64,000 nucleotides of DNA from Haloferax marinisediminis. Its GTDB lineage: Archaea > Halobacteriota > Halobacteria > Halobacteriales > Haloferacaceae. The notes beneath the pieces are model-generated. The model ran no database searches. It worked only from the letters and a program-made list of their open reading frames with translations, and had not been told where the DNA came from. The position numbers and the translations under genes are program-made. The DNA lies in NCBI RefSeq assembly GCF_009674585.1, contig NZ_WKJP01000001.1:2046001-2110000 (forward strand), in the 5' to 3' direction. Shown here piece by piece: positions 57,355 to 61,395 of the stretch (positions within the stretch are counted from its first letter, which is position 1; each line of letters starts with the position of its first letter).

Positions 57355-57429
57355 GGGCGCTTAGCTCAGTCTGGACAGAGTGCTTGGCTTCGGACCAAGT
57401 TGCCGTGGGTTCAAATCCTGCAGCGCCCA
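57355..57429 (+). tRNA. tRNA-Arg (anticodon TCG)
   Basis: A complete cloverleaf. The acceptor stem pairs GGGCGCT with AGCGCCC. The D arm is GCTC...GAGT, and the anticodon arm is CTTGG-CTTCGGA-CCAAG with TCG at 34-36. The T arm is GTGGG-TTCAAAT-CCTGC with two G-T wobbles. The discriminator base is A, and no CCA is encoded. It reads CGA/CGG-type Arg codons. The last 17 bases are repeated about 116 bases downstream, followed by hairpins. Confidence 0.95.
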
Positions 57430-57546
57430 TGATTCTTCCGCGAACAACGTGAGCGGAGAATCATCTCCGCGAAGGATTTGAATTAGACCGGGGTTCTGCG
57501 CGAAGCGCAGGTTCTCGGGCGTAGTTCACAATCCTGCAGCGCCCAT
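57414..57546. repeat. tRNA 3'-end direct repeat with hairpin cluster (att-like scar)
   Basis: AATCCTGCAGCGCCCAT occurs at 57414-57430 (tRNA end) and exactly at 57530-57546; allowing a one-base insertion the match extends five bases further left. Between them are a seven-base stem GCGGAGA-ATCA-TCTCCGC (57453-57470), an alternative stem pairing 57430-57441 with 57453-57463, and CTGCGC-GAA-GCGCAG (57496-57510). GGATTTGAA at 57474-57482 is the reverse of TTCAAATCC in the T arm. Confidence 0.8.
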
Positions 57547-57696
57547 CTTCCTTCGACGAACCAACCTACGCAGAGACCCGTCTCCGTAGATGGAATGTGG
57601 GTCTTCGTCTAGTACCGATTTCCCGTGAGTCCACCCGTGACGAGTCTTCGATTCGACTACTCCACACCAACGAGTGCTGTGGACGCGCCCCCCGCC

Positions 57697-58422
57697 TCAC
57701 CCACCCACCCACGGAACCACAACCTCAGCAAGTCGTCGATGCGCTTCGTCGTACGAAATCGAAGCAGGCGAATCCCCGCGCTGGCCTCGATACGAACCGA
57801 ACTGCGTGTGGTTCATCCCCTGAACCTCGTGGCTCGTCGCGGTCGGTGGTAATCGTGCCTGCGCCGCTTGGTAGTTCTCGCGGTCGAGGACAGTATCTGC
57901 GCTCCCGGTGACGCTCAGGACAGCAACCGACTGGTTGCTCAGGTCCACGTTACAGTAGGATGCGAACAGGAGGAGGCCCTGTACCTCGTGTGAACTGGCG
58001 TACTGGCAGGCGGCAACGCCCCCAAGTGAATGACCACCGACGAACCACGTCTGAATCGCGGGGTTGCGACGCTGAATCGTCGCAGCGGCATCGGTGTCGA
58101 GGAGTGCAGTGTTGAGTGGCATCTCCGGAATGAACACCGTGACGTTCGTCTGTTTGACCACCGGTGCGAACGTACTGTAGTAGGCGTCAGGAGCGACACG
58201 ACCACCCGGATAGAACACGAGCCCAACAGTCGAGTCGGCATTCACGGGAGAGAGGACGTGGACACCATCTGTCGTCTCGACGGAGACCTGTGGGTCGTCC
58301 ACGACCTCTTGGACCGACGACGGCGTTCCGTGATACGGAACCGAGAAGTAGAGTGCTGCACCGCCGCCGAGGACGATAAAAACGACAAACACGACGACGG
58401 CCCCTCGTTTCCACCGACTCAT
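57697..58422 (-). CDS. Membrane-anchored alpha/beta hydrolase
   Basis: A 241-residue protein with one N-terminal helix (about residues 7-28) and an alpha/beta-hydrolase domain outside the membrane. The nucleophile elbow is GGHSLGGVAA (near residue 128). The catalytic His is in GMNHTQFGSYRGQRGD and an Asp is in TGSADTVLDRE. This matches the 'alpha/beta hydrolase 5' type of small lipoprotein-like hydrolases. The substrate is unknown. A TATA-like element (58448-58454) and a small hairpin (58425-58438) precede the start. Confidence 0.85.
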   Translation of the reverse strand: MSRWKRGAVVVFVVFIVLGGGAALYFSVPYHGTPSSVQEVVDDPQVSVETTDGVHVLSPVNADSTVGLVFYPGGRVAPDAYYSTFAPVVKQTNVTVFIPEMPLNTALLDTDAAATIQRRNPAIQTWFVGGHSLGGVAACQYASSHEVQGLLLFASYCNVDLSNQSVAVLSVTGSADTVLDRENYQAAQARLPPTATSHEVQGMNHTQFGSYRGQRGDSPASISYDEAHRRLAEVVVPWVGG

Positions 58423-58478
58423 ATCGTTCGAAAGAACGTGTCACGTGTATAAACAGTAGCTGGTTGGTGAACGATTCA

Positions 58479-58982
58479 CTATTCGCTCACCGGCGTTCGC
58501 TCGGCGGGCGATTCCAACTCCGAGTTCACTGACCCCTCCGCATCGTACAACTTCACCATCCGGTCGAAGAACACGAACATGAACACCATCGACACACACA
58601 GTCCACCCGCTGTTCGAAGCCGCTGACGTTTCACGGCCGCACGCAACGTGTACAGATTGGCCATCGCACCGAGTGCAGTAATCCCGACGGCACCCGTCTC
58701 GGACAGCAACCCACGTTCGAGCCACACCTGCTCGCCTAAGACGACGCGAGTCGCCCACGCGTCGTCTGTCTCTGGTGGTGAGACCACGGCGAGGTTCGCG
58801 AAGATCGAGAGGAGCGCCACGGCCAACAGTGGCCGGCTTCGGCGGTAAATCGCCGCAATGAACACGGGATAGAGTGCCACGAACGCCCAGACACTCCGGG
58901 GATTCGCGTGCGGACTCCAGAACACGTCGTCGACGAACTCACCAACAGTCCCTCTGTGTTGGATTTCACCCTCGGCCGTCAT
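58479..58982 (-). CDS. DUF6653-like membrane protein
   Basis: A 167-residue protein. The soluble start holds DDVFWSPHANPRSVWAFVAL, where FW.H.NP.S.W is the pattern I associate with DUF6653. Four hydrophobic segments follow, separated by PETDDAWATRVVLGEQVW. The start is the ATG at 58982; the upstream frame is Arg/Ser-rich. Function unknown. It lies upstream of the alpha/beta hydrolase gene on the same strand, with a 56-base gap that holds the latter's own TATA. Confidence 0.65.
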   Translation of the reverse strand: MTAEGEIQHRGTVGEFVDDVFWSPHANPRSVWAFVALYPVFIAAIYRRSRPLLAVALLSIFANLAVVSPPETDDAWATRVVLGEQVWLERGLLSETGAVGITALGAMANLYTLRAAVKRQRLRTAGGLCVSMVFMFVFFDRMVKLYDAEGSVNSELESPAERTPVSE

Positions 58983-59152
58983 CGTGGTAAAACTACGGCA
59001 GGATGGCGAATAAAGACGACTGGCCAACGGGTTCAGACGCCCGTCGGGTGTCGACGCTGTTTACTGATCACGATGCAACTCGGCAGTACGTCCCCCTTCA
59101 ACCAGTCACAGAGAAATCAAAATAGTGCGCCAGTTACGCGGAGGGGAAGGCT

Positions 59153-59159
59153 CTTATAC
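59153..59159 (+). promoter_or_regulatory. TATA-like box, DUF1059 gene
   Basis: CTTATAC lies 26-32 bases before the ATG at 59185. The ATG at 59166 is out of frame, so the box helps fix the start. Confidence 0.5.
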
Positions 59160-59184
59160 TGTCCAATGAAGCCGAAATTAGCAC

Positions 59185-59415
59185 ATGAAGCACTGCTCGC
59201 ATCCCGGTTGTTCGTGGCAGGCAATCGCCCCCTCTGCGGATGCTGCACTGACACAGTACGCTGAACACCTCGTCGAAGAACACTCCCGAACGGTCGACGT
59301 GGACATCCCGGACGGTATGGTCCAAATCAAACTCCACGAGGACGCAGAGTGGATTACCACGACGTTCGAAGAGGCACGGGAACTCCACGACTCGGTCGAC
59401 GACGAGTACGAGTAA
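59185..59415 (+). CDS. DUF1059 domain small protein
   Basis: A 76-residue protein. MKHCSHPGCSWQAIAPSADA with the following HLVEEHS shows the DUF1059 pattern (C..PGC.W.A.A...D........H...H), a small presumed metal-binding domain with unknown role. The second half is mixed strand/helix and acidic. Probably cytoplasmic. The Cys and His spacing suggests one zinc. Confidence 0.72.
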   Translation: MKHCSHPGCSWQAIAPSADAALTQYAEHLVEEHSRTVDVDIPDGMVQIKLHEDAEWITTTFEEARELHDSVDDEYE

Positions 59416-59857
59416 TCCGAGTCTTTTCGTGGCTACTCTTTCGACCTCGGCCACGTCGATGGAATGTCGCTCCCATCCTCAACCGAGAGGCAACCTTCAA
59501 ACTTCGCAAACGTCGGGTTCTGTACGAACTTCCCTCCGAGAACCGTCTCACCCAACCCGAATTTCGTAGGGGTTCCACACTGGGACAGCCTGTTGTCGTG
59601 AATCGTCCCGGGGCGCTGGGTGGGTAAGCGCAGACGACCGTCCAGACCACGCCACCCATCTACCTCTTCTTCGACGAACCGACGGAGTGGTTTCGACATC
59701 CCTACAACCCAGTTAGGGAGTCAGTACGAGCGACCGTGCGGGGGTTCTTCCGGACTGACTACTCGTCCGTTTTATGGCTCGTCTGTCCAGTATTCTTCGA
59801 CTTGCTCAGGATAGACGATATATAACAATACAGTCTGTCTTGGAATATCCATACGAG
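59416..59857. other. 442-base region without a safe gene
   Basis: Less GC-rich than the rest of the window. A minus-strand frame at 59433-59699 (88 residues) has a balanced, not acidic, composition and no recognised motif, so it is probably not a gene, or it is a remnant. The right end holds the TATA of the GNAT gene. I see no RNA structure. Confidence 0.5.
59817..59826 (+). promoter_or_regulatory. TATA box deciding the GNAT gene start
   Basis: GATATATAAC lies 32-41 bases before the ATG at 59858. Longer frames that begin at 59774 run through it, so 59858 is the likely start, with a leader of under about 10 bases. Confidence 0.6.
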
Positions 59858-60991
59858 ATGGGGCATCTTCATCAGCGGGACCAACGAACTGATGGGTACC
59901 GCGTCCAACAATTCTCGGCAGAAAATCTGGACGGTTTCTTATCTCTCCACGAACTCACGTATGGCGGCGAACCGACGACAGAACTCTTCGACTGGCGGTA
60001 CAACAGTCCGTATCTAGACGAGATTCCGATATTCGTCGCACTCGACGATGCAGACACTGTCGTCGGTGCAACCGCATTCTTACCGTTTCGAATCGCTGCA
60101 GGCGACACCGCGGCGCTCGCCCTCCAACCGGCGAACGCGATGGTCCACCCGGAACATCGACGGAACGGTCTGTTCAGTCGGACGTTGACGAGCGCGATTG
60201 ACCACTACCGCGAGAGCGATGCAGAGTTCTTCTTCAATTTCCCCACCCCGCCGGCGCTTCCCGCGCTCACGAAACTCGGTTGGGAGGACGTCGGGACGAT
60301 GCCAACGTGCTTCCGTCTTCAGCACCCGGTCGCGTTGCTCAACGGCTCAGTTCCGGATTCGATTACGCCGGTGGCATCTCGGATTGCGACGACCGTCGCG
60401 AAAGGCCACTGTCGAATCCGTCGCGGATTTGCAGATTGTGACCCGAGCATCGACGTCGAGCGATACGACGACGTTCCTGTCGACCTGTTCGTCGACCTGT
60501 ACGAGGAGAACGTCCCGGAGCGAGTCCACGTCGTCAAAGACAGGGCATACGTTGGATGGCGGTTCGGCAATCCCACGTGGGACACCGTCTCGTACGTGGC
60601 GCGACGGGATGGCCGTCCAGTCACCGGTCTCGTCGCGTGTACACGGCAGGCGAATGGAATCACGGTAACTGTCTTGATGAGCGTCCTGCCATCGACGGCC
60701 GTCGACCGAGATACCGATGCGCTCGTTGCTGTGCTCGACGCCGTCGTCGACGACCACCGACACGTCGACGTGATTCGCGTGAGTGGGTATTCGCTCCCGG
60801 ACTCGATTCTCGAACGATTTGACTTCCTCAGCAACCACGCATTCCCACTGTCACGAGTGACCAACAAGACACACCTGGTCACCAGACCAATCGTAGACGA
60901 CGCCGAAGACCAGTGGTATCTGGGAGGTCACAACATCAGTGGAAAAGACAACTGGCTCATCGAACTCGCCGACCAGGATGCGCCGTTCTAA
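59858..60991 (+). CDS. GNAT family N-acetyltransferase
   Basis: A 377-residue protein. The N-terminal half is a GNAT fold: YRVQQFSAENLDGFLSLHEL, then the CoA-binding MVHPEHRRNGLFSRTL (the Q/RxxGxG/A region reads RRNGLF) near residue 92, and FFFNFPTPPALPALTKLGWE. The second half repeats a similar layout without clear motifs, as in the two-GNAT-domain proteins of haloarchaeal glycan loci. The acceptor is unknown. Codon use is slightly less GC-biased than its neighbours, which may mean later acquisition. Confidence 0.82.
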   Translation: MGHLHQRDQRTDGYRVQQFSAENLDGFLSLHELTYGGEPTTELFDWRYNSPYLDEIPIFVALDDADTVVGATAFLPFRIAAGDTAALALQPANAMVHPEHRRNGLFSRTLTSAIDHYRESDAEFFFNFPTPPALPALTKLGWEDVGTMPTCFRLQHPVALLNGSVPDSITPVASRIATTVAKGHCRIRRGFADCDPSIDVERYDDVPVDLFVDLYEENVPERVHVVKDRAYVGWRFGNPTWDTVSYVARRDGRPVTGLVACTRQANGITVTVLMSVLPSTAVDRDTDALVAVLDAVVDDHRHVDVIRVSGYSLPDSILERFDFLSNHAFPLSRVTNKTHLVTRPIVDDAEDQWYLGGHNISGKDNWLIELADQDAPF

Positions 60992-61083
60992 CCGTTTGCA
61001 GTCGCTGCCGCTGACTCGTACACTGCGCCGAAGCCACCCGATAAATTGGTTGGCTCAATGTCGCAGTCGCAGATGCGACGCAG

Positions 61084-61395
61084 TTACTCCTCTAGGTGTT
61101 CGATGCCCTGTTTCGACACGTTCGAGCGGGTGACGTAGTCGTCCATCCACTCGGGGGCGTCGTCGCCTTTCTCTTCGGTCCACGCCCAGCCTTCGTAGAT
61201 GTGAACTTTGTCGGTTCCACGCTCGCGGAGTCTGAGCGTCGCGTGCCCATCGATTTCGTCGCGACTCGGGGCGGGGTGTAGTCGTCGAGCAGCCTTCAAC
61301 GCTGCCTGTCGGGGGTACTTACCACTGAAGACGCTGGTCTCTTCGCCATCGTCCTCCACGAGGACGAAATTTCGCTTACCATCTTCTCGGACCAT
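61084..61395 (-). CDS. Non-histone chromosomal protein MC1
   Basis: A 103-residue MC1, the small DNA-bending architectural protein of methanogens and haloarchaea. KRNFVLVEDDGEETSVFSGK and YPRQAALKAARRLHPA correspond to the conserved RNFxLxxxxGxExxVFxGxxPRQAALKAA core. The C-terminal half has the usual LRERGTDKVHIYEGW strand pair. It binds and compacts DNA in the nucleoid. The start at 61395 gives the family length and has a TATA-like element 21-30 bases upstream; a start at 61440 would be too long. Confidence 0.92.
   Translation of the reverse strand: MVREDGKRNFVLVEDDGEETSVFSGKYPRQAALKAARRLHPAPSRDEIDGHATLRLRERGTDKVHIYEGWAWTEEKGDDAPEWMDDYVTRSNVSKQGIEHLEE

Follow-up and report, generated by a model that had tools for sequence, protein, structure and literature searches.

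The integrative elements and proviruses of the SNJ2, pNOB8 and SSV type, as described in the available portion of PMC8371274, are bounded by a direct repeat of a tRNA 3' end, use the T-loop or the acceptor as their site and leave the tRNA intact. The same traits are seen in a unit directly downstream of a tRNA-Arg gene in Haloferax marinisediminis, which lies in a stretch of 64,000 nucleotides (nt) of contig NZ_WKJP01000001.1 (positions 2,046,001 to 2,110,000), referred to here as the window. However, compared with the elements in that portion of the paper, the unit contains neither genes nor an integrase, is about 116 nt long and has an inverted arm fitted to the isotype of its host tRNA; such cassettes also form arrays, and in three genomes between a quarter and two fifths of the tRNAs examined are followed by them. 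A paper on Haloferax gibbonsii LR2-5 (PMC7921747) mentions adjacent 'partial tRNAs', termed remnants; going by the available part of that paper, these are very probably the same objects, and the part in question mentions neither hairpin cassettes nor an inverted arm, and neither arrays nor a broader survey. We read the unit as one gene-less cassette of a tRNA-anchored array, built by recombination at the T-loop with the second of its two hairpins (hairpin B) as the site, and give this reading a probability of about 0.5. The architecture of the cassettes, their fit to the isotype, their location on the 3' side of tRNAs, their borders at nt 53 and 73, the decay from proximal to distal copies and the turnover among sister species are direct observations.

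The attC sites of integrons have the consensus R' GTTRRRY and R'' RYYYAAC, and the right arm of hairpin B starts with GTTC, to be set against GTTRRRY in a comparison made by eye. Units of integron arrays and of clusters of attC sites lacking integron-integrases (CALINs), archaea included, end like the cassettes in imperfect inverted repeats, are fresher at the fixed end, keep a constant orientation and are mosaic in order, as far as the available portion of PMC9668308 goes. The tRNA cassettes do possess the fresher units at the fixed end (a polarity of 36 versus 10) and the mosaic order (mosaics of A and B hairpins), but they are gene-less and their repeat is a tRNA tail; neither 'Halobacteri' nor 'tRNA' occurs in that portion of the archaeal integron paper. 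Arrays of clustered regularly interspaced short palindromic repeats (CRISPR) are also repeat-spaced with possible leader-proximal growth, whereas the cassette repeat is nt 53-73 of the host tRNA and the units are recurring A and B hairpins rather than foreign spacers. Casposons are alike in their use of tRNA 3' ends, but at the unit of the window no terminal inverted repeats of at least 10 nt were found. Finally, haloarchaeal miniature inverted-repeat transposable elements (MITEs), palindrome-associated transposable elements (PATEs) and small mobile repeats are equally short and gene-less, and the mobilisation of some is left unexplained in the available portion of PMC3119063; they are not described there as tied to tRNAs, whereas the cassette ends copy the host tRNA. 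The cassette plan is absent from the available portions of PMC8371274, PMC3119063 and PMC9668308, and a literature search covering mostly open papers returned no description of it, the nearest being the partial-tRNA remark in the part of PMC7921747 available. An earlier description is possible, but the small hairpin cassettes that are widespread behind haloarchaeal tRNA genes are apparently undescribed so far.

Within the window, AATCCTGCAGCGCCCAT is present twice in exact form, at 57414-57430 and at 57530-57546 with the starts 116 nt apart, and the match around this repeat reaches 32 nt at 84% identity. The exact 17-bp copy of the tRNA end was correctly called in an earlier note made from the letters of the window (the original prediction), as was a longer copy of 22 bp with one insertion, which corresponds to nt 53-73 of the tRNA with one extra base (Table 1). 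The whole cassette unit occupies 57430-57545 (116 nt) and is one member of a family. It consists of two predicted hairpins, the second with stacked stems, which bears out the three strong stems noted earlier; the RNA fold has an energy of -53.2 kcal/mol (z -4.86, with none of 200 shuffles as good), and the DNA fold has a z of -3.72 on the sense strand and of -2.23 on the antisense strand. What the original prediction lacks is a 10-nt stretch in the left arm of hairpin B that is exactly inverse to T-arm sequence of the tRNA; the two form the only inverted pair of at least 10 nt in 57355-57700, where terminal inverted repeats of that length were not found. The region bounded by the repeats is free of open reading frames (ORFs) of at least 60 amino acids, and hence of an integrase gene; that it holds no gene had been stated originally. 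At the gathering score, the tRNA is the sole Rfam match in the window, and the unit belongs to no RNA family known there.

Table 1. Coordinates of the host tRNA and the parts of the cassette, numbered along the window
Feature	Position	Strand	Basis and remarks
Host tRNA-Arg (anticodon TCG)	57355..57429	+	ARAGORN; Rfam RF00005, 62 bits; nt 53-73 (57409-57429) are the stretch copied downstream
Hairpin A of cassette	57430..57463	+	Predicted fold; same sequence type in congeners
Hairpin B of cassette (left arm, core, right arm)	57468..57541	+	Predicted fold; also an alignment of 19 related hairpins with their folds
Left arm of hairpin B, inverted copy of host T-arm	57473..57485	+	57473-57482 exactly inverse to 57410-57419; left arms match their isotype
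Core of hairpin B, type i (GACCGRGGTTCTGCG..GCAGGTTCTCGGGCG)	57486..57521	+	Recurs in other haloarchaea downstream of tRNAs for Val, Phe, Leu, Gly and Lys
Right arm of hairpin B and acceptor 3' strand, copied from tRNA nt 53-73 with an additional base	57524..57545	+	Repeat comparison; copy borders

A cassette begins with hairpin A and continues with hairpin B, in which the host T-arm is copied twice, inverted in the left arm and directly in the right; the host acceptor 3' strand follows. The median length without the repeat is 96 nt (n=255), to which the 20-nt tail copy is added. The borders of the copy were determined in 35 cases, in which the tail from nt 53 onward served as the anchor and the outer positions are therefore the informative ones: identity to the tRNA is 12/35 at position -2, 29/35 at -1 and 35/35 at nt 53, and on the 3' side it stands at 31/35 at nt 73 and 18/35 thereafter. 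At -3 to -15, only 3 to 13 of the 35 copies are identical to the tRNA, which is background.

A comparison of the arms supports the fit to the host isotype. Left arms pair with their own right arms at a Watson-Crick fraction of 0.811 (31 modules from three genomes), versus a mean of 0.702 with the arms of other isotypes; the highest of 500 shuffles is 0.749, so none of them reaches the value for the own arm. Among arm pairs at nt 52-62, sense-strand G.U occurs at 20 of 163 opportunities and A.C at 5 of 178 (Fisher p 0.0013), as counted in tRNA loci of three genomes that were taken without regard to the arm pattern described below, two of the genomes themselves being pattern-positive picks. A pattern-enriched set of 156 modules contains 160 G.U and 68 A.C pairs, with 76 of the 160 at one position. 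The excess of G.U over A.C suggests that the folding strand is probably the tRNA-sense strand, either as RNA or as single-stranded DNA.

The window's core type was aligned in 19 hairpins from several tRNAs and genomes. The core loops are nearly invariant, and 3 of the 17 predicted pairs in the core stems are changed on both sides. Core orientation is constant among the 40 commonest end pairs listed; an invertible core between facing T-loops was considered and rejected, there being no reversed ends in these pairs. As a separate observation, the hairpin cores in many cassettes (for example downstream of the tRNA in locus L096) contain many GA/GA internal loops and GCGAAGC-like loops, which are very stable in DNA and RNA.

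When the tRNA plus unit was used as a query against 59 relatives, the match ran through the end of the unit (query positions 189-192) in four congeners (G009, G013, G006 and G008). Partial matches were also detected kilobases from an intact tRNA, and hairpin B was found alone elsewhere; these stray copies, too, lie behind tRNAs (Phe, Val, Leu, Gly, Thr and Lys). The arm pattern GGATTTGAAY-N14..44-GGTTCAAATCC is present in 193 of 292 genomes of the class, and a slightly wider pattern in 27 of 33 genomes of the class versus 0 of 163 other genomes of the phylum. A same-strand tRNA lies upstream within 230 nt at 28 of 30 fetched pattern loci. A survey of named genomes, in which 80 loci were examined of at least 120 found, places 62 of 72 haloarchaeal sites at most 500 nt behind a tRNA, with one overlapping a tRNA and nine without a tRNA or near a contig edge; 20 anticodons are represented among the haloarchaeal sites examined. 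The other 11 sites of this survey are non-haloarchaeal by record title, and one of them, L199, is behind a tRNA.

A count independent of the pattern was made by searching within 250 nt of each tRNA for its own 20-nt tail with up to three mismatches, other tRNAs being masked. In the H. marinisediminis genome, 13 of 50 tRNAs have an own-tail copy downstream and one of 50 has such a copy upstream. The corresponding downstream counts are 9/29 in G056 and 13/31 in G045, and 0/33 in G436, a non-haloarchaeal genome of the same phylum, with no upstream copies in any of these three. G056 and G045 were chosen for having pattern matches, and G436 had none, such that the three bracket a range and do not estimate a mean. 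Of their 45, 44 and 54 tRNA loci, respectively, the 30 with the best scores were fetched. The tails of other isotypes give expectations of 0.09, 0.07 and 0.35 matches for H. marinisediminis, G056 and G045. Given 13 of 50 downstream against one of 50 upstream in H. marinisediminis, with 0.09 expected from other isotypes, chance is a poor explanation.

The plan is not confined to haloarchaea. In the Woesearchaeota record L199 (genome G468, reached through a pattern match, with 30 of its 40 tRNA loci fetched), copies stand behind 8 of 29 tRNAs and upstream of none, and several have inverted arms and recurring cores of their own. In G700, a second genome of the same phylum, a tRNA-Met (L463) is followed by the same plan, with core ends like those of the window's type i (TAGACC..GGGCGT). 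The exact pattern matched 1 of 279 genomes of this phylum, a figure that says little about frequency there, since the exact pattern misses G468 itself.

Two to four copies (at most five mismatches) are found at 65 of 297 haloarchaeal tRNA loci, and copy spacing in these arrays is 90-150 nt for 58 of 80. When the copies nearest to and farthest from the tRNA are compared at the 65 loci, the nearest is the more exact at 36 and the farthest at 10, and the two are equal at 19 (sign test p 1.6e-4); many of the 297 loci were chosen by pattern and some overlap, and they are not independent. Turnover is seen at single loci in the genus. Behind tRNA-Val (TAC) in 13 Haloferax genomes there are 19 cassettes, one to three per array, with six A types and four B types in many combinations; types were defined by 75% identity across the 38 nt at the start and the 32 nt at the end, and two genomes of the 15 (G008 and G009) were dropped for want of a tail match. 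A shared downstream flank visibly ends 7 of these 13 arrays. Behind tRNA-Arg (CCT), 14 of 15 genomes have cassettes, 39 in all and up to five per array, which fall into 12 A types and 7 B types; the orthologue in G008 has no cassette within 700 nt. The Arg-CCT arrays (L373-L387) also include a shorter second class of cassette, about 55 nt long, whose repeat matches only the T-stem and the acceptor side. Some adjoining cassettes are near-identical tandem units (L187, L047). Among cassette pairs with 80% identity, 55 share an anticodon and 9 do not when 90% of the length is required, and 82 and 28, respectively, at 70% of the length; the many orthologues of two loci from one genus inflate the same-anticodon pairs, so no conclusion is drawn from this ratio.

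Farther downstream in the window, the stretch 57546-61084 differs among congeners, with G002, G003, G004, G011, G012 and G014 becoming similar again only from about 61084, while G013 and G010 share the window sequence from about 57690 on. At the tRNA-Arg of the window itself, relatives do carry tyrosine integrase islands, which the original prediction had proposed looking for. The integrases of the G003 and G014 islands fall just below the Pfam cut-off for Phage_integrase, with a SAM-like domain above it (in G003 with a PHROG integrase match at 6e-22), and that of the G011 island is over the Pfam cut-off (PHROG 2e-28). A further integrase over the Pfam cut-off is found in G001, with no distal copy in 19.9 kb. 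In the three Haloferax relatives with both ends visible (G003, G014 and G011), hairpin-A-type sequence directly adjoins the distal repeat, that past the G014 island being of a different type and with no full cassette behind it. In G007 the contig stops at the distal copy. Beyond the genus, no obvious cassette accompanies the distal copies of G015, G018 and G021. The islands in G003 (L034 1681-12770), G014 (L143) and G007 (L144) have related ORF sets that look to us pleolipovirus-like; the G003 island also encodes a DUF1424 replication protein. On our reading, the islands use the tRNA itself and displace the cassette outward. The idea that distal copies act as decoys that catch integrases is unsupported, the islands of G003, G014 and G011 having entered at the tRNA.

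The sharp borders, the intact tRNA, the freshness of proximal copies, the constant orientation and the reassortment of A and B types agree with T-loop recombination in which hairpin B is the folded partner. Cassettes would be gained or swapped by recombination at the start of the T-loop (G53/T54), adjoining the tRNA, whose 3' end would be kept intact, and older cassettes would shift outward and decay. The recombination site may be the folded sense strand of hairpin B, with two facing T-loop sites around the core; the reassortment of A and B types would then follow from exchange at its left and right arms. A first guess for the enzyme would be a haloarchaeal tyrosine recombinase acting in trans. 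It is a more doubtful proposition that haloarchaea and at least two genomes of the phylum of the Woesearchaeota record run a gene-less integron-like system, in which the T-loop would be the fixed site and the folded strand of hairpin B its partner, and cassettes would be captured, swapped and lost beside an unharmed tRNA.

Several points weigh against recombination at the T-loop. The arrays have been tied to no recombinase, and excised circles were not observed; at about 116 nt, such a circle is very small for double-stranded DNA. The unit has no match in PLSDB and phage records, where no carrier was found; viral contigs gave ten pattern matches, with none of the haloarchaeal kind among the nine read, and gave no match to a stricter core pattern. 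Even at 6 mismatches in 20, 27 of the 50 tRNAs of H. marinisediminis are without a copy. Unequal homologous recombination between the 20-nt repeats could shuffle cassettes instead, the fixed core orientation speaks against free inversion between facing T-loop sites, and the selection and overlap of loci in the 297-locus sample qualify the polarity.

The main rival is an RNA role, in which the cassette would be a structured 3' trailer whose left arm is antisense to the T-arm and whose right arm sequesters it, tuning pre-tRNA folding, 3' processing or stability, with the arrays varying by unequal recombination. This is a tentative possibility, and it is consistent with the strong RNA fold, the sense-strand excess of G.U over A.C, the two-sided changes that keep pairing at 3 of 17 core-stem pairs and the ending of the copies at the mature tRNA 3' end. 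However, the same-strand preference for G.U is equally expected of folded single-stranded DNA, cassette number and type vary among sister species to the point that Arg-CCT in G008 has none within 700 nt, and the 27 copy-less tRNAs of H. marinisediminis count here as well. The two proposals are compatible, and both can be true. Splicing of the trailer at a bulge-helix-bulge (BHB) motif was tried as a candidate and rejected, there being no such substrate in the available part of the circular-RNA table of a splicing-endonuclease paper (PMC7714728). Plain tandem duplication, by which slippage or unequal homologous recombination would have copied tRNA ends together with a neighboring palindrome, with neither a dedicated system nor a function, would suit the near-identical tandem units at L187 and L047, but appears unlikely: it leaves unexplained the isotype-fitted inverted T-arms, the cores common to different isotypes, the sharp borders at nt 53 and nt 73 and the recurrence of the plan, with different cores, in a Woesearchaeota genome.

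Target duplications at tRNA 3' ends are known from casposons, and a casposase or Cas1-like insertion, in which a short hairpin DNA would enter the tRNA 3' end and gap filling would duplicate the target nt 53-73, much as in the growth of a CRISPR array, would agree with the fresher copies beside a fixed, leader-like end. A target duplication does not account for the inverted T-arm, however, and no terminal inverted repeats of at least 10 nt were found at the unit; this route is improbable. The original prediction had offered two views of the unit, of which the minimal structured element at the tRNA site fits, as one unit of a large family, and the scar of an excised element does not. Although tyrosine integrase islands occupy this tRNA in relatives, those of G003, G014 and G011 lie between the tRNA and hairpin-A-type sequence, so that the unit is not the scar of those islands; moreover, the cassette plan is repeated behind 20 anticodons, with isotype-matched inverted T-arms that are not expected of an excision scar. 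Descent from any excised island or provirus is thus highly improbable. A decayed second tRNA of an old tandem pair, which the original prediction had itself raised, is scarcely credible: genuine tandem tRNAs exist in H. marinisediminis (Asp, Gly and Val), but resemblance to the tRNA ends at about nt 53, and upstream of nt 52 the 35 copies are at background similarity.

Of the nine viral-contig matches read, seven are tRNA-like palindromes readable both ways and two are unrelated sequence (L116, L117). The viral contigs L113-L115, L118-L120 and L122 have long tRNA-like inverted repeats, which look like invertible tRNA-based sites.

Viruses and islands are known to land at the 3' ends of archaeal tRNA genes. 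In the three haloarchaeal genomes, a quarter to two fifths of the tRNA genes examined are also followed by short structured units derived from their own tails, and these units differ by species. If they are recombination sites, they represent a novel class of cassette system, one that may be relevant to whether tRNA ends are shielded from integrases or exposed to them. If they act as RNA, they represent a new regulatory trailer of tRNA genes. Should the integron-like reading be true, haloarchaea would possess a recombination system with the tRNA gene set as its platform.
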